A DNA stretch of 34,649 bases from Chloroflexota bacterium (GTDB taxonomy: Bacteria; Chloroflexota; Anaerolineae; Anaerolineales; UBA11657): positions 1 through 34,649 of the forward strand of contig QWRL01000006.1 of NCBI GenBank assembly GCA_003670425.1, read 5' to 3'. Below, one piece after another: positions 1,040-23,382 of the stretch (within the stretch, counting starts at the first letter, position 1; the number at the start of each line of letters is the position of its first letter). The notes beneath the pieces were generated by a model that was not told the DNA's origin, did not search any database, and saw only the letters and a program-made list of their open reading frames with translations. A program made the translations under genes and the position numbers.

Positions 1040-1501
1040 ATGTTTAAAGTAGAACAAGGAGGCAGCGCCTACGGCGCGCGCCTGGTGGCCACACAGCCAC
1101 TGACTGCCGGCACTGTCATTCACCGCATCACAGACTACCGCACCACCCCGCACCCCACGTACCAGACAATTCAAATCGGACCCAACACCCACATTAATGA
1201 GTTGGGCATGGTTGCGTACCTCAACCACTCGTGCGCGCCCAACACCATCATTGACACCAGCGAGCTGACAATCTCGGCGGTGCAGGACATCCCGGCTGGC
1301 GCAGACCTTACTTTCTTCTACGCCTCAACCGAATGGGAAATGGAGCGGCCGTTTATTTGCCTGTGCGGCGCGCCGCAATGCGTGCGCCTGATGGCCGGAG
1401 CCAAACATCTTTCCGTTGACACCCTGAGCCGCTATTTCATCAACGCGCACATTCGGGCGTTCATACTGGAGTCTTTGGGGGTGCCGGCGCTGGCGGCGTA
1501 G
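1040..1501 (+). CDS. Small SET-domain protein (putative protein-lysine methyltransferase)
   Basis: NHSCAPN motif, AGADLTFFY, and post-SET-like CLCGAPQC; SD gaggag upstream of the ATG. Confidence 0.85.
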   Translation: MFKVEQGGSAYGARLVATQPLTAGTVIHRITDYRTTPHPTYQTIQIGPNTHINELGMVAYLNHSCAPNTIIDTSELTISAVQDIPAGADLTFFYASTEWEMERPFICLCGAPQCVRLMAGAKHLSVDTLSRYFINAHIRAFILESLGVPALAA

Positions 1502-6614: not shown

Positions 6615-8195
6615 CTAGATTAACTGGGAGAGTTGCCGAGCAGCCACCTGTAAATTCTCCAACTCAACCCGGCTAGCTGTGACGCCTGCCTCGATTTGGT
6701 GCGTAGCGCCCGCGGGGCTGGTGAGCACTTCGAAGCCCGCCTGCAACGTTGCAACCTGCTCCTGCATGTCAAGCAAGCTCTGCTGGGCGCGCCCGGTGGC
6801 CGTGTGCAGCGCAGTCACAAGTTCCTCAAAGACCGCTGCACTTTGCTGTGCCTGCTCTACGGTGTCTGCGAGCTGCGGGGTGCCGGTGTCCGCATCTAGC
6901 GCTGATGCCCCCGTGCTGTTTTCAAGCTCCGCCACGAGTTTCTGGATGTGGTCTTCAGACTTGCGGCTCTCATCTGCGAGGCGGCGGATGTCGGTGGCTA
7001 CCACGGCAAAGCCTTTGCCATGTTCGCCACTGCGCGTGGCCGCAACTGCCGCGCGGCGTGCCAGCAAGTTTGACTGGGCGACAAACTCACCAACACAGCT
7101 GCTGAGGGAGCCGATTTGCGTATGATGCCCGGCCAGATGCAACAGCTGTTCGGCGTTGGCCCGCAGCTGCGCCTGCAGCCCGCCCAAGACAGCAAGCGTA
7201 TCCTGCCCAACCGCGCGCGCGCTTTGCGCAGTGGTCACCGATGCAGTACTGGTATCGGCGAGGGCGTTGTGCAGCTCTTCGAATGCTGCCGCGCAGCCGG
7301 CAAATGCGGCGCTTTGGGCTTGCATCACGGCAGCGCTGTTGTCCGCGGCCGCAGCCTGCTGCAGCACCGTCAGCGCCACCTGTTCAGAGTTGGCGCTTAC
7401 CGTGCTGGCAGCGGCCGTCATGGAATTAATGGCGGCACCCAGCGACCGGCGCAAGGACACCTTGCTGAACTGGTAGAGCGCCGCAAGCACCAGCACCAAC
7501 CCCGCACCCACGGCCAGCAAACCAGTGCTGCCGCCGGCCGGGGCCGCACCCGCGCGATCCTGCAGCTGCTGGCGCGCTATTTGAGCCGCCGCCTCCATCA
7601 CCGCGCGATGTTCTGCGTAGACCGGCGCTAGCTCAAGATTGAACACGCGCGCTGCCAGCTCTGGCGCCACGGCCAGCGCCGGCACCAGCCGCGTGCGGAA
7701 CAACGAGAAAAAGAGCTGCGCCGATTCATCAGCAGTTTGCAGCAATGTTTTCAAATCCCCGTCCGGCTGGTTTGCCTGCCAGTATTCGTGGCGCGCTACA
7801 AATTCTTCCTGCAGCACCGCCATGCGCTCCACCAGCGCAGCCTGTTGCCCGGGGTCAGTTGCAAGGATGAGGGCGCCGGCAGTGGCGTAGCTTTCCATGA
7901 GGTGCGCCGGCGGCGGCAAAATATCCGCGAGCAGCGCGTTGTCTGTGCTGATCTGCGCGTAGAGCGCGGCCGGCATGCTGCCCGTGTCTGCGCTTAGCAA
8001 TGCCACAAGCGCCGGTATAAGTACGGCCGCAACGCTGGCCGCAAAAAAAATGGTCAGCATGCTGCGCAGACTTAAATTCTGCGCCCGGGCCGACAACCCA
8101 GCCAGCCGAGTTCTGGCAGCCGGGCTTATGCGGGCGGCAACAGGTTGCAACAGGCGCGAGACAAATCCAGGAGTATTAGTTGCGTTCACAATCAT
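6615..8195 (-). CDS. Methyl-accepting chemotaxis-like protein without recognisable HAMP
   Basis: TM1 (SMLTIFFAASVAAVLIPALVALL), periplasmic-type region, TM2 (GLLAVGAGLVLVLAALYQF), then hairpin-tip motif EFVAQSNLLARRAAVAATRSGEHGKGFAVVATDIRRLADES. Confidence 0.87.
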   Translation of the reverse strand: MIVNATNTPGFVSRLLQPVAARISPAARTRLAGLSARAQNLSLRSMLTIFFAASVAAVLIPALVALLSADTGSMPAALYAQISTDNALLADILPPPAHLMESYATAGALILATDPGQQAALVERMAVLQEEFVARHEYWQANQPDGDLKTLLQTADESAQLFFSLFRTRLVPALAVAPELAARVFNLELAPVYAEHRAVMEAAAQIARQQLQDRAGAAPAGGSTGLLAVGAGLVLVLAALYQFSKVSLRRSLGAAINSMTAAASTVSANSEQVALTVLQQAAAADNSAAVMQAQSAAFAGCAAAFEELHNALADTSTASVTTAQSARAVGQDTLAVLGGLQAQLRANAEQLLHLAGHHTQIGSLSSCVGEFVAQSNLLARRAAVAATRSGEHGKGFAVVATDIRRLADESRKSEDHIQKLVAELENSTGASALDADTGTPQLADTVEQAQQSAAVFEELVTALHTATGRAQQSLLDMQEQVATLQAGFEVLTSPAGATHQIEAGVTASRVELENLQVAARQLSQLI

Positions 8196-8199
8196 ATTC

Positions 8200-10608
8200 T
8201 CACTCTGGCTTTAGTTCCACAGATGCAACAGCCGACCCACCAAGTACACCGCTACCCTCAGTGGCACGGGCGCGGGCAGCGGCAAACAGGTCGGCGGGGT
8301 GCAGCACAATGCAAACTTCGCCGGTGCCCAAAATGGCGCTGCCGCGCACGGTGCGCACGCGCTCAAGAATTGGGCTGTGCTGAATGACGGCCACGTCTTG
8401 CACGCCCGCCACGCTGTCCACCAGCACGCCCAGCCGCTCGGCGCCCGCCTGCATGATGATGCACGGCCACGCCACCGCGCTGCCGCGCACCTGCGCCACC
8501 GACTGCGCTTGTCGCAGCATTAGCAGCTCCTCCAACATCACCACCGAAACCGGCTGGCGATTTTCGCGGATTGTCTCGTGCCCGGCCATTATTAAAATAT
8601 CGTTGGCGGTGACAAGGCGGGTGGTCTCCACGGCTGCGCTCGGGATGGCGTAGCTGTGGTTGCCCACGCGCACCACAATCACCGGTGTGGTGGCCGTGCC
8701 AATTGGCAGCTGGATGGCAATCACCGAACCGCTGCCCGGCGTTGATTGCACCTGCAACGACCCGTTCAGGCGCAGCACTGCCGCGCGCGCAGCGTCCATG
8801 CCTGCATCCGTTGCGTTTAACCCCTGTAAAACTTGTGGTTCGGACGCCGCAAAAGTGGGCGTTGCGTTCGCGTCTTCTGCGCGCAGTAAATTTTTCCGCA
8901 GTCCCTTGTGCTTGATGGCTGGCTCGTTGAGTGCGGCGCCGTCATCAGTTATTTCAACGATCAACCTGGTGGTGGTCTGCCGCGCCTGCAGGTGGATGGT
9001 GGCGGTGGCGGGCTTGCCAGCCCGCACGCGCTGCGCTGGCAGCTCCAGGCTGTTTTCCACGACATGGCGCAAGATGTGCTTGATCACATCTGCAAGCTCT
9101 TCACAGGTGTGCATGTCTGCCGTGAGCTCGCCGCCCGCCATCACCAGCTGCACATCTTTGGATAGGCTGCGCGCGATGCCGTGCAGCATGCGCGGAAGAC
9201 GGCTGAAGATACTTGATAGCGGCAGCATGCCCAATGCGTGGATGTGTACCGTCAGATCGCGCACCAGCACGCTGAGCTGCGCATTATTGTTATAGGTGCT
9301 GCCGCGCAGCTGGCCCAGCGTGGTGCCCAGCTGCTCAAGATTCTGCACCTGCTGCTTTTTCAGATTATCGGATTGGGCCACAGCATCCCTTGTGCCGCGC
9401 ATCGATTCTTCCCAGAAGCCCACCAGCTGCTCCACCTGTTTGAGCAGCATGCTCACCTGTGCATGCAGCGCGGCTACTTTGCCGGCGCCCGGCCGCAGCG
9501 CGTCTACTTGCGCGGCAGCCATACTGGCGGCAGTTGTGCCGGTCACCGCCCCAACTGCAATGTTGGTGGAATGTTTGTGCACGGCAGGCGTGGCGTCCAG
9601 AGCAGACTGCGCTGGCTCGTTCACGATGATGCCGCCGTGCCGCAGCAAAACCGAAATGTTTAGGATGCAGAGCTCATGATCATCAAATGCGGCCGTGCCG
9701 CTGATGAAGCTGCTGCCAGAACTTTGCGTGACTGGCGCCGGATGGCAGTGCTGCGGGTCAATGTAGAGCACTGCAATTACTGCATCTACCAGCAGCCCAG
9801 CTGTGAACTCCGGCAGCGTTACCACCACCACGCTGCCACTGTGCCCGCCATCTTGTGCGGCGGCCGGCAGGCGCAGCGCATGGCGGATATCCACCACCGT
9901 CAAGATCTCGCCGCGCAGATTCATGTTGCCCACAATGTGCGCTGGGCAACAAGGCACCGTGGCCACACTGCCCAATTCGCAAAACTCGCGCACCAGATCC
10001 AGCTCTAGTCCGTAATACTCGTGGTTGATTGTGACTACTGCCAGGCCCAGCGGCTTGGCGGTGGCAGCAGCTGCAGCTTGCGGCCGCAGCGCGGCGGCGC
10101 GCTGCCGAAAAACTGCCAGTGCATCCAGCCCGCCGGCTGGTGCAAAACGCAGCGCACCCGTATCCGCTGGCTGCTGCTGCGCTGCCAGCAAGGGCCACAG
10201 TTCGCCGTACCGCAGCAGCCAGCCAATTTGTGCGCCCAGCCTGGCCATGCGCGTAGCCAACCGCAGCGCAACCGATTCGTCAAAGTCCGGCACGGGCACG
10301 AGGTCTGCAGTAGAGATCAATTTCATGTCCAGCACTTCATTTGCCAGAATACCCAGCGGACCGCGGCTGCCATTTAACAGCAGCACGCGGTCCGCCAACT
10401 GCACGCTGCCATCCGGGCGCCCCAGCTGTTCGCTGAGGTTTATCACCGGCACCGTGACGCCGCGCAGATTGAAAACGCCGGACACGCACGCCGCCTGCTC
10501 CGGCACCACTGTTAGCTCGGGCACCGGCAGCACCGAGTGCATTTCCGCAGCAGCCACAACAAACAGCGTGTTTTGAAACCGGAATGAAATGTGCGGTTCT
10601 TGTTCCAT
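8200..10608 (-). CDS. CheW-CheW-CheA(P3-P4-P5)-like fusion, no Hpt domain, degenerate ATP site
   Basis: Start reassigned to MEQEPHISFRFQNTLFVVAAAEMHSVLPVP. Two N-terminal CheW-like segments, CheA P3-like MLPLSSIFSRLPRMLHGIARSLSKDVQL, P4-like RVRAGKPATATIHLQA...EITDDG...RLNGSLQVQSTPGSGSVIAIQLP, C-terminal CheW/P5. Confidence 0.85.
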   Translation of the reverse strand: MEQEPHISFRFQNTLFVVAAAEMHSVLPVPELTVVPEQAACVSGVFNLRGVTVPVINLSEQLGRPDGSVQLADRVLLLNGSRGPLGILANEVLDMKLISTADLVPVPDFDESVALRLATRMARLGAQIGWLLRYGELWPLLAAQQQPADTGALRFAPAGGLDALAVFRQRAAALRPQAAAAATAKPLGLAVVTINHEYYGLELDLVREFCELGSVATVPCCPAHIVGNMNLRGEILTVVDIRHALRLPAAAQDGGHSGSVVVVTLPEFTAGLLVDAVIAVLYIDPQHCHPAPVTQSSGSSFISGTAAFDDHELCILNISVLLRHGGIIVNEPAQSALDATPAVHKHSTNIAVGAVTGTTAASMAAAQVDALRPGAGKVAALHAQVSMLLKQVEQLVGFWEESMRGTRDAVAQSDNLKKQQVQNLEQLGTTLGQLRGSTYNNNAQLSVLVRDLTVHIHALGMLPLSSIFSRLPRMLHGIARSLSKDVQLVMAGGELTADMHTCEELADVIKHILRHVVENSLELPAQRVRAGKPATATIHLQARQTTTRLIVEITDDGAALNEPAIKHKGLRKNLLRAEDANATPTFAASEPQVLQGLNATDAGMDAARAAVLRLNGSLQVQSTPGSGSVIAIQLPIGTATTPVIVVRVGNHSYAIPSAAVETTRLVTANDILIMAGHETIRENRQPVSVVMLEELLMLRQAQSVAQVRGSAVAWPCIIMQAGAERLGVLVDSVAGVQDVAVIQHSPILERVRTVRGSAILGTGEVCIVLHPADLFAAARARATEGSGVLGGSAVASVELKPE

Positions 10609-11029
10609 TAATTTATGAGCGCACAGGTGCGCCCGGTCACTCGCCCGGTACCTGCAATACCAATGGAAGGAAGTTATCGGCAAATCAGGCTTTTTCTGCA
10701 AATGGTTGCAGCATTTAAGCGCTTTACCGCGCCCAAAAAATAGCGGGGATTGACGGCGCTTTACTTTTCTGGGGTCTCGGAGCGGGCGTTAATGTGCAGA
10801 AATCACGCTGTAATTTGCAAATACTGGAAAGTGCCTGAATTAAAGCGTAAATTTATTAGCCGCGGGCAGCCGGGCGAATGGCGCCGCCTTGAAGCAGCTA
10901 CCTCCTTCATATCAATTGGCGCACTCAAAACGAGCGACGCGCCACCTGTCAGCTTTGCCGTTGTGGGTTTGCGCTGGCAGTGCCATCGACGCGGTGGGGG
11001 CAGCGCCCGGCGTGCCGGCGGCATTCTTG

Positions 11030-14786: not shown

Positions 14787-16703
14787 TTAGGGCAGCTGGC
14801 TCACAACGCAGCGGAAGCCGATGTTGTGGGTGCCAACCTGGTTGTCAACTGCAAAGCCGTGGTACGCGGCGCGCTGCTTGGAGACGCCGTCTGTCCAGCT
14901 GCCATTGCGCAGGCCATACACGCCGCCGCGAAAACTTTCTTCCGGCGGGGGCGTGGCCGTAAGCACCTGATCCAGCTTGAACCAATGGCTGCGGTAAAAA
15001 CTGGACACGCGCTCCGCAACATTGCCGGACATATCAAGCGCACCATACGGGCTGGCGCCCAGCGGATACGTGCCAACTGCTGTGGTGTCGCGGCTTTGCG
15101 AGGCAAAGTTTGCGCGTGTGGAATCCGGCCGGGCAACGCCCCAGGGGTATTTGTTGCCATCCGGCCCGCGCGCTGCTTTCTCCCACTCCATGTCCGTTGG
15201 CAGGCGCCGGCCCGCCCACTCACAATAATTTGCGGACTGTGCCCAATTGAGCCACAGCACCGGATAGGTGGCGTACTTGTCATCGTCATAGTAGTTCGCG
15301 CGGGTGCCGGAGCTGAGCTTGGCCGGCAGGCTGCAGGCGTTTGCAGCCACGCACTGCTTGTACTGGCCCACGGTGACTTCGGTGCGGTCAACCCAAAACT
15401 CGGGCAGGTTGACGTTGTTCAGCGGCTGCTCATCCAACTGCGATGTGCGATCGCCAAAGTCTGAGCCCATGATGAAGTTGCCGGCTGGCACAAACATCAG
15501 TGTGGCGCCATCGCTGGCGGCGATGGCACTAGTGCCTATGGTGGGCGGCAGCGTGGGCGTGACGGTGGGTGTGACTGTGGGGGTGGGTGGCAGCGCGGTG
15601 GCGGTGGGCAGCGCAGTTGCCGTTTGCGTGGCGGTTGCGGTTGCGGTGGCAGCAACCACTGCCACGGCTGCAGCCGGCGTGGCCGTCTGCGCCACAACCA
15701 CCACCACCTGGGTGGACGCGGCCGGCACAAAACTCAGGCTGCCATTTATCTGCTGAAACACAAGCATCGCCACTAGCAATACGCCCAGCACGCCGCCAAT
15801 CACAATCAGTTCGCGCATCAGTGGTTTTACAAAACGCTGCAGCGCGTGCAGCAGTCCGGGCGGCTTCGGTTCCGCCACTTTAGGGGTCTCGTCCGGCATA
15901 GCGGGCATGTCCGGCCTTTCCACGGGCGGCACATCATGTGGCACAACCTTGCCCAGTGCTTTGCGCATTTCACGCACGCTTTCATAGCGGTCTTCCACGC
16001 GGAAGGCCATGGCCTTCTCCACGATGCGCACCAACTCCTTGCCCGGCGGCTGTTCAAAGGTGCGCAGCGCGCGGATGGCAAACCGGTCCGGTATGCCATT
16101 CTGGCTATCGCCCGGAATGGTGCCGGTGAGCATGAAGTACAGCACACTGCCCAGCGCGTACACCTCGCTGGCGGCCGTTACCTGGCCGGTCAGCTGCTCG
16201 GGGGCCACCAGTGTGGCGGGCGTGCCGGGCCGGTGCGTCTTGCCGATGCTGTAATCCACCAGTACCGCCTGGTCATCACTGGTCAGCAGAATGTTGGCTG
16301 CCTTGATGTCGCGATGGAAGAGCGCCATCGGCCGTTCGTGCAGATGATGAACCGCCACCAATATCTGCATAATCCATTCCACGGCGGCGGATTCAGCCAG
16401 TGGGCCCTCGTCTGCCACGCGGTCCGCCACGCTCACCCCGCTCACATACTCCGTGACCAGGTAGCGCACGTCGCCCAAGGCAAAATGGTCGAGCACACCG
16501 GCCAGATTGGGGTGCACCACCTGGCGCAGCGCTGCGGCAATCGTGTCAAATTCCGCGCCATCCACCGCATCGAATTCCTTCACCACGCACACCTGATTGT
16601 TGATGGTGTCGTACGCAGCGTAGACCGTGCCGGCCGGATGCGGCGACAGCAGCGCGTCTATGCGGTAGCGATGATGAACGTGGAGGCCGGGCTGCAGGGG
16701 CAT
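14787..16703 (-). CDS. Hanks-type Ser/Thr protein kinase - TM - Thr/Pro linker - SUMF1/FGE-like domain fusion
   Basis: HRDIKAANIL catalytic loop, VLVDYSIGK in the DFG position, VAPEQLTG; TM LIVIGGVLGVLLVAMLVFQ; SUMF1 domain MFVPAGNFIMGS...VDRTEVTVGQYKQCV...GRRLPTDMEWEKAARG...DMSGNVAE...NIGFRCV. Confidence 0.9.
   Translation of the reverse strand: MPLQPGLHVHHRYRIDALLSPHPAGTVYAAYDTINNQVCVVKEFDAVDGAEFDTIAAALRQVVHPNLAGVLDHFALGDVRYLVTEYVSGVSVADRVADEGPLAESAAVEWIMQILVAVHHLHERPMALFHRDIKAANILLTSDDQAVLVDYSIGKTHRPGTPATLVAPEQLTGQVTAASEVYALGSVLYFMLTGTIPGDSQNGIPDRFAIRALRTFEQPPGKELVRIVEKAMAFRVEDRYESVREMRKALGKVVPHDVPPVERPDMPAMPDETPKVAEPKPPGLLHALQRFVKPLMRELIVIGGVLGVLLVAMLVFQQINGSLSFVPAASTQVVVVVAQTATPAAAVAVVAATATATATQTATALPTATALPPTPTVTPTVTPTLPPTIGTSAIAASDGATLMFVPAGNFIMGSDFGDRTSQLDEQPLNNVNLPEFWVDRTEVTVGQYKQCVAANACSLPAKLSSGTRANYYDDDKYATYPVLWLNWAQSANYCEWAGRRLPTDMEWEKAARGPDGNKYPWGVARPDSTRANFASQSRDTTAVGTYPLGASPYGALDMSGNVAERVSSFYRSHWFKLDQVLTATPPPEESFRGGVYGLRNGSWTDGVSKQRAAYHGFAVDNQVGTHNIGFRCVVSQLP
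15535..15730 (-). repeat. Low-complexity Thr/Ala/Pro linker region in the kinase-SUMF1 protein
   Basis: Reads ...VVVVVAQTATPAAAVAVVAATATATATQTATALPTATALPPTPTVTPTVTPTLPPT. Confidence 0.8.
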
Positions 16704-21678: not shown

Positions 21679-21707
21679 TTGACTTTCCAAAACTTTTCGG
21701 GTATTCT
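21679..21707 (+). promoter_or_regulatory. Sigma70-type promoter TTGACT - 17 nt - TATTCT upstream of the ATP-grasp/SET gene
   Basis: Direct reading ttgactttccaaaacttttcgggtattct; implies a leader of about 130 nt. Confidence 0.65.
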
Positions 21708-21846: not shown

Positions 21847-23382
21847 ATGAAGATTTGCATTCTCAACGTTTGTTACGAAGATTCCAATTCACCCATCAAG
21901 GAGTACGAGCTGCAGTCCGACCCGGCACGCTGGCTGGATGGCCATCAGTGCGAGCTGCACCTGATCAAGAAATCCACGGCTGTGCGCCAGGTGCAAGAAC
22001 TGGCGCGCCAAAACTTCGACCTGTTCATTAACTTATGCGACGGCGCATGGGATGAGGACCGGCCGGGCATCGAAGTGGTGCAGGCTCTGGAGCGGCTGGG
22101 TGTGCCGTTCACTGGCGCTGGTGCCGGCTTTTACGAGCCGACGCGCGAGGAAATGAAGCTGGTGTCGCACTACTGGGGTGTCAGCACGCCGGCTTACATG
22201 CAGGTCAGCGAGATTGAAGACATCAAGCTGGCCGCCAAGGCGCTGCGCTATCCGCTGATCGTCAAGCACCCCAACAGCTACAACAGCATCGGCCTTACGC
22301 GCGACTCACGCGTAACAAATGCGGCGCAGCTTACGCAGCAAGCCAAGCGCATGCTGGATGCGTTTGGCGGCGCACTGGTGGAGGAGTTTATTGAGGGGCG
22401 CGAGTTCACCGTGCTCGTTTCCGAAAATCCGCGTGACGCGCTGGCACCCTTTGCGTATCAGCCGGTGGAGTTCAGCTTCCCCAAAGGCGACACCTTTAAG
22501 CACTTTGACCTGAAGTGGGTGAACTACGCCGGCATGAAGTGCTCGCCAGTGCGCGACCGCGAGCTGGCCGAACGCTTGAAGGATGCCGCGCGCAAGCTTT
22601 TTGTCGGCCTCAATGGCACCGGCTACGGGCGCTGTGACCTGCGTCTCAACGCAGCCGGCGAGCTGTTTATGCTGGAAATCAACCCCAACTGCAGCATCTT
22701 TTATCCACCAGAACAAGCCGGCAGTGCGGACTTCATTCTGCTCAACGACCCCGCCGGCCACCGGGGCTTCTTGGATGCGGTGATGGAATCTGCGCAGCTG
22801 CGCACCCGCAAGCTAAGCCAGGCGTGGACACTGCAGTTCAACAACCAGAGCCAGTTTGGCATGTATGCCGCGCACGAGCTGCGCGCCGGCGAGCTGATTG
22901 TGGCGTTTGAAGAAGCGTCGCACAATCTTGTGAGCAAAACCCACGCAATGCGCAAGTTCAGCCGCCAGCAGAAACGCTGGTTTGGGCAGTTTGCCTACCC
23001 GCTCTCTGAGGACACCTACGTGACATGGAGCGAGCATGCTGTCGACTGGAAACCGCTCAACCATTCCTGCGACCCAAGCGCCTGGCTGGAAGGGCTGAAC
23101 GTGGTGGCGCGCCGGCCGCTAAAACGCGGCGAGCACATCACCCTGGACTACGCCACTTTTTATACTGAGCAGATGCCGCAATTTGCGTGCAAATGCGGGT
23201 CGGCAAACTGCCGCGGCGTTGTGCGCGGCACGGATTACAAAAAGGCGTTTGTAGCGCAGTACGGCGACCATGTTTCCGATTTTGTGCGCACCAAGCGCAT
23301 AGCCCTGAATGGCGCGGCGCAGCCGCAAATGGAAACGCTGCCGGCCAAGCGGCCGCGGCGTGTGCTCGCGGCCAGCGCCTGA
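21847..23382 (+). CDS. ATP-grasp (D-Ala-D-Ala ligase-like) / SET-domain fusion
   Basis: Start reassigned to MKICILNVCYEDSNSPIKEYE (ORF track start lies in the promoter). ATP-grasp: LFINLCDGAWDEDRPG, YPLIVKHPNSYNSIGLT, ALVEEFIEGREFTVLVSE, GTGYGRCDLRLNAAGELFMLEINPNCSIFYP. SET: PLNHSCDPSAW, RGEHITLDYATFY, CKCGSANCRG. Confidence 0.9.
   Translation: MKICILNVCYEDSNSPIKEYELQSDPARWLDGHQCELHLIKKSTAVRQVQELARQNFDLFINLCDGAWDEDRPGIEVVQALERLGVPFTGAGAGFYEPTREEMKLVSHYWGVSTPAYMQVSEIEDIKLAAKALRYPLIVKHPNSYNSIGLTRDSRVTNAAQLTQQAKRMLDAFGGALVEEFIEGREFTVLVSENPRDALAPFAYQPVEFSFPKGDTFKHFDLKWVNYAGMKCSPVRDRELAERLKDAARKLFVGLNGTGYGRCDLRLNAAGELFMLEINPNCSIFYPPEQAGSADFILLNDPAGHRGFLDAVMESAQLRTRKLSQAWTLQFNNQSQFGMYAAHELRAGELIVAFEEASHNLVSKTHAMRKFSRQQKRWFGQFAYPLSEDTYVTWSEHAVDWKPLNHSCDPSAWLEGLNVVARRPLKRGEHITLDYATFYTEQMPQFACKCGSANCRGVVRGTDYKKAFVAQYGDHVSDFVRTKRIALNGAAQPQMETLPAKRPRRVLAASA

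Follow-up and report, generated by a model that had tools for sequence, protein, structure and literature searches.

A conserved fusion of a D-Ala-D-Ala-ligase-type ATP-grasp domain with a SET methyltransferase domain, and its probable BurB-like partner

The fusion gene and its surroundings

The window, that is, the whole stretch of 34,649 nucleotides of a Chloroflexota contig analysed here, comes from a 2.08 Mb assembly that is 75% complete. It carries a gene in which a ligase module precedes a SET domain (hereafter SET1), and, some distance upstream, a separate SET gene (SET2). The features discussed below are the following.

21847–23382, forward strand: gene of the ATP-grasp-SET fusion (511 aa; the coordinates include the stop)
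21847–22815, forward strand: D-Ala-D-Ala-ligase-type ATP-grasp module (residues about 1–323)
22825–23232, forward strand: SET1 plus post-SET module (residues 327–462)
23317–23379, forward strand: C-terminal tail of the fusion (residues 491–511), predicted disordered (pLDDT < 50)
21679–21707, forward strand: weak sigma-70-like promoter candidate before the fusion gene, of a kind expected at about chance frequency and so no evidence for a function
1040–1501, forward strand: stand-alone SET2 gene (153 aa), a BurB-like SET, about 20 kb upstream of the fusion

A single uninterrupted frame at 21847–23382 translates into 511 amino acids plus a stop. An earlier start would be possible at TTG 21679, but relatives share the same MKI beginning, which sets the start at the ATG of 21847. 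A first, sequence-only reading had seen here one open reading frame combining an ATP-grasp ligase with a C-terminal SET domain, and the intact protein bears this out: both Pfam domains exceed their curated cut-offs, Dala_Dala_lig_C with E=2.2e-17 over residues 125–280 (22219–22686) and SET with E=8.1e-8 over residues 337–435 (33.1 bits against a cut-off of 22.4), and the motifs then quoted (EINPNCSIFYP, YPLIVKHPNSYNSIGL, NHSCDPSAW and CKCGSANCRG) are all found. The AlphaFold model, computed from a 47-sequence input, has a mean pLDDT of 90.1 and a pTM of 0.80, with only residues 491–511 disordered. Two more genomes of the source genus have the gene, and comparison with Anaerolineaceae bacterium BD1 (dN 0.040, dS 0.485, hence dN/dS about 0.08) shows that it is under purifying selection. 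Taken with the quality of the model and with about 45 further full-length fusions that align across both domains, most of them at 46–60% identity, this argues that the fusion is no artefact of chance or of frame.

The ligase domain and the two SET domains

The best Foldseek matches of the ligase part are DdlB structures (E=6e-20), which, with the Pfam domains, supports the initial view of a SET methyltransferase attached to a fold of the carboxylate-amine ligases. Residue equivalences were read from an alignment to Yersinia and Pseudomonas Ddl, and conservation from 47 fusions. The residues that handle ATP and Mg2+ in E. coli DdlB (K97, K144, E180, E187, D257, E270 and N272) correspond to K104, K140, E179, E186, D264, E277 and N279, the first five being invariant and the last two conserved in at least 90% of the fusions; the likewise invariant R262 corresponds to DdlB R255, which anchors the acceptor carboxylate. 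The protein thus belongs with the ATP-grasp superfamily by its fold and by its ATP/Mg2+ residues, shares with DdlB (8evz; E. coli DdlB 1iov) the Arg for the acceptor carboxylate, and resembles a working ligase. The first D-Ala site, formed by E15, H63 and S150 in E. coli DdlB, is in contrast not found. The position of H63 is Asp65 and that of Y216 is Trp224, both invariant among fusions, that of S150 is a variable Asn146, and there is no equivalent of the GGxSxE loop; unlike DdlB, moreover, the fusion has a SET domain attached. All NCBIfam cut-offs for Ddl and Van ligases are missed widely, the best score being 76.8 against 243 bits (PRK01372), followed by TIGR01205 (69.6 against 245.65). Since the first-substrate site differs and the scores fall far under every curated cut-off, we reject the identification of this ligase as a Ddl.

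The same observations weigh on a role in the cell wall, where a variant D-Ala-D-Ala ligase and a tailoring methyltransferase would alter peptidoglycan or antibiotic resistance. The nearest fold is indeed that of Ddl, and the Van-type D-Ala-D-X ligases are themselves Ddl variants; yet Asp65 and Trp224 in all fusions, the distance from the Ddl and Van cut-offs, the presence of another Ddl-like gene in the source genome (C133:9740-10543) and the lack of conserved cell-wall genes next to the fusion make such a role very improbable. As a separate observation, a giant-virus protein annotated as a D-Ala-D-Ala ligase (BFVD A0A2H4UVJ7, from Bodo saltans virus) matches the ATP-grasp part at E=5.6e-22 with a TMt of 0.84, and is structurally nearer to it than any PDB entry.

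SET domains are known mainly as histone methyltransferases. SET1 is placed in the SET methyltransferase family by its Pfam match, by NHSC at residues 405–408, by Tyr435 at the catalytic position and by the zinc-type post-SET CxCx4C cysteines 448, 450 and 455. In the 47-fusion alignment H406 and C448 are invariant, while C408, Y435, C450 and C455 are kept in at least 90%, and an aromatic I-SET motif, W..WF..YAWP, is conserved around residues 371–401. A loss of catalytic residues, which the sequence-only reading had named as grounds for giving it up, was thus seen in neither domain across the fusion family. The best PDB matches of SET1 include MLL-type histone methyltransferases (MLL/KMT2A at E about 3e-8). 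In the SET tree it falls among generic bacterial SETs and not with BurB, the basal support being weak, and its nearest kin are uncharacterised bacterial proteins (such as C86:1888-2229 of the source genome) that have the CRGxxxGxDW C-terminal motif in common with it and, unlike it, stand alone and lack the W..WF..YAWP motif. That gene (G000:C86:1888-2229; L003/L114), the third and generic SET gene of the source genome, is kept in the genus and belongs to a functionally uncharacterised type that is widespread across Chloroflexota.

SET2 is of another kind. BurB, from Burkholderia thailandensis (PDB 9l4t, 9l4v), relies on proximity and desolvation to convert free methionine into S-methylmethionine, and binds methionine mainly through main-chain contacts (PMC12542666). 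The SET2 profile gives BurB 85.9 bits, against at most 42.2 for any histone methyltransferase, and the AlphaFold model of the window's SET2 (pLDDT 90) finds the BurB-SMM-SAM structure first in Foldseek, at E=2.2e-11, the next protein coming at 2.0e-6; in sequence and in fold alike, BurB is closer to SET2 than any protein methyltransferase. The tree separates SET1 and SET2 cleanly and puts BurB on the SET2 side, with weak support (74/65). Fold and size are common to SET2 and BurB, as are HSCxP, Y-x-S-T-E, F-x-C-x-C-x4-C and a GA signature. SET2 nevertheless has Asn62 (of NHSC) and Phe93 where BurB has Leu and Asp, and is paired with an ATP-grasp; its likeness to a methionine enzyme is drawn from sequence and fold. 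The substrate of a SET2-type enzyme cannot be read from side chains, because BurB holds methionine mainly by the main chain. The kinship makes methylation at sulfur or at another position of an amino acid at least as likely as N-methylation of lysine.

It is here that the main rival of the small-molecule pathway discussed below has to be considered, namely that SET1 methylates lysines of a bacterial protein (ribosomal, chromatin-like or other) to which the ATP-grasp also adds an amino acid, in the manner of RimK or of tubulin tyrosine ligases. Characterised SETs are mostly protein lysine methyltransferases, and the MLL/KMT2A match of SET1 fits this. A literature search on ATP-grasp or D-Ala ligase with SET found TTLL12 alone, a human protein that joins SET-like and TTL domains and is devoid of critical residues and activity (PMC3520985). 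It is a distant precedent: as in the fusion, a SET-like domain is paired with an ATP-grasp (TTL), but in reverse order, with a ligase of TTL and not Ddl type, a SETD3/4/6-like SET and no activity. Against protein modification stand the fold of the fusion's ligase, which is of the Ddl small-molecule type and not of the RimK/TTL type, the BurB-like nature of SET2, the recruitment of exporters and, in the neighbourhoods compared, the lack of a conserved substrate protein adjoining the fusion, so that we consider this rival rather unlikely. No characterised protein with an ATP-grasp-SET architecture came up in our literature search, made largely outside subscription papers and with no claim to priority, in agreement with the sequence-only reading.

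Distribution, partnership and neighbourhood

A scan of genome contigs with six peptide patterns, which gives a lower bound, recovered at least 56 loci, mostly full-length fusions. They are found in Chloroflexota, Acidobacteriota, Chlorobiota, Planctomycetota, Myxococcota, Pseudomonadota, Gemmatimonadota, Actinomycetota, Rhodothermota and Methylomirabilota, several of the labels being those of metagenome bins (the 'Klebsiella' label of L075 is probably a mislabel). Full-length relatives are 40–93% identical over about ten phyla. The fusion tree intermixes these phyla, Methylococcales for example being placed beside Chlorobium with strong support, a pattern suggestive of horizontal transfer. Among 400 sampled Chloroflexota the fusion occurs only in the window's genome, the other matches at E<=1e-60 being stand-alone ATP-grasps of one family. 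A mobile-element or defence role is unsupported: neither plasmids nor viral contigs gave a full-length match to the fusion, and it matches no PADLOC family.

Homologues of the ligase that stand alone, with no SET, are found in f12 Anaerolineales, in unrelated contexts, and in Bacteroidetes, beside miaB and an AhpD-like gene; neither setting offers a functional clue. That the ligase does not need SET is what would be expected if the two domains acted on unrelated substrates and were fused for co-expression only, or if SET1 were regulatory or structural. We regard this as unlikely, however, since the fusion has been maintained over about ten phyla with its SET catalytic residues conserved, and a second SET has repeatedly been gained by fusion or adjacency. 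In one Anaerolineales family, stand-alone ATP-grasps also occur as paralogues, some in tandem, with two or three copies per genome (G433:C1:1412006-1413865, G322:C8:70748-72645, G428:C55).

The second SET is SET2. Its gene immediately precedes that of the fusion in Chlorobium, Methylococcales, Caldilineaceae and a related genome; among Myxococcota, Planctomycetota and Acidobacteriota, and in a Pseudomonas, it forms the third domain of a protein of 640–690 aa. The window's copy, 59–64% identical to those of Caldilineaceae and of an Anaerolineales genome (G012), has all invariant residues, and the gene at 1040–1501 is a probable partner enzyme of the fusion. Among the fusion genomes tested SET2 was detected in 24 of 41, none being detectable in about 17. 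One Anaerolineales family with an unfused ATP-grasp displays a tighter association: of its 80 genomes, 39 encode the ATP-grasp and 28 encode SET2, every one of these 28 holding an ATP-grasp homologue (Fisher 6e-13 by genome). Counted by genus, all eight SET2 genera fall within the 12 of 26 that have the ATP-grasp (p=3e-4), a fairer figure because the genomes are related. SET2 is present and this ATP-grasp missing in three Anaerolineales genomes (G011, G012, G056); another (G014) shows the converse, a stand-alone ATP-grasp of 60% identity and no SET2. With SET2 missing from about 17 of the 41 fusion genomes and alone in three others, the partnership is not obligatory.

The sequence-only reading had called for the neighbourhoods of homologues to be compared. 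This returned recurrent SETs and an ABC exporter, and no further conserved pathway gene beside the fusion. In Chlorobium and in a Methylococcales genome SET2, the fusion and an ABC exporter form an operon in that order, to which Chlorobium adds a third SET gene, of 120 aa, after the exporter. By sequence, the ABC proteins next to the fusion form two groups with about 33% identity between them, one in Chlorobium and Methylococcales (63–67% mutual identity), the other in Schlesneria (Planctomycetota), Bryobacterales and a proteobacterium (40–43%). A single conserved ABC cluster is rejected on these identities, which give the two groups and some unrelated ABC ATPases, and suggest that export was recruited at least twice. 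Most fusions, that of the window included, have no exporter next to them, and the window's own neighbours (DUF4380, an FGGY kinase and a dienelactone hydrolase) are not kept beside distant fusions. The SET2 partner at 1040–1501, the three-domain forms and the exporter are additions to what had first been noticed.

Loci that unite an ATP-grasp with an ABC exporter resemble, in outline, those of graspetides (PMC8939145), and one may ask whether a ribosomal precursor peptide is cross-linked or extended by the ATP-grasp, methylated by the SETs and carried out by the exporter. We disfavour this view: two close Chlorobiaceae apart, no small ORF is conserved beside the compared operons and no linked precursor was found; the Methylococcales operon has no intergenic room; Pfam finds no C39 peptidase in the ABC proteins of L046, L050, L042 and L080; and the text of the graspetide survey does not mention the SET domain (PMC8939145). 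A peptide maturase is accordingly given little credence.

Several individual loci deserve mention. In the richest neighbourhood, at proteobacterial L080 (3866-9527), the genes around the fusion encode a split ABC exporter, a Cupin_8/JmjC-like oxygenase and a protein of the LicD family, possibly a pathway. Acidobacterial L069 (3955-10304) and the near-identical L070 hold an array that begins with a FAD/ferredoxin NosR-like protein (699 aa) and a SET (123 aa), and continues with a two-domain ATP-grasp-SET, a three-domain ATP-grasp-SET-SET and a further SET gene. At L082 (10196-13365, reverse strand) ORFs of 667–784 aa encode other Ddl-like ATP-grasps (about 33–36% identity) and adjoin the fusion on the opposite strand.

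A possible pathway to a methylated amide

Considering the exporters together with the ligase domain and a partner akin to BurB, we favour, with a probability of about one half, a small-molecule pathway: the ATP-grasp would form an amide, the SETs would methylate a building block or the product, and some lineages would export the result, a methylated amide that is probably a dipeptide. The Ddl-type ATP-grasp would use ATP to phosphorylate the carboxylate of an amino-acid-like donor, probably not D-Ala, and the acyl phosphate would condense with an amine, whether a second amino acid or another one, to yield a dipeptide-like amide. With SAM as methyl donor, SET1 would methylate the substrate or the product at least once. 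SET2 may methylate a free amino acid by a proximity mechanism like that of BurB (methionine to S-methylmethionine, or an analogue), and its product would probably feed the ligase; in some lineages the ABC exporter would carry the final product out. That the linkage is conserved over phyla suggests linked steps, so that the successive ligation and methylation proposed in the sequence-only reading find partial support. More tentatively, the fusions might represent an undescribed, phylum-spanning class of SET-ligases making an exported methylated dipeptide that serves as a signal, an antibiotic or a protectant; the dipeptide could, with similar reserve, be of sulfonium or betaine type, for example.

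Bacterial SET proteins are common yet little explained, and are usually treated as chromatin effectors (PMC3980110). That a unit of ligase and SET is conserved, and has a partner akin to BurB, points to a small-molecule branch among them. With two or three genes, the system is a compact and testable one for a new methylated metabolite, and cultured hosts of the fusion include Chlorobium ferrooxidans, Hyalangium versicolor and Pseudomonas sp. LP_7_YM.

Elsewhere in the window, a Ser/Thr protein kinase is fused with an FGE-sulfatase (SUMF1-like) domain at 14787–16703 on the reverse strand, and a chemotaxis hybrid at 8200–10701 on the reverse strand, which matches CheW three times and also carries a HATPase, adjoins an MCP-like protein at 6615–8195.
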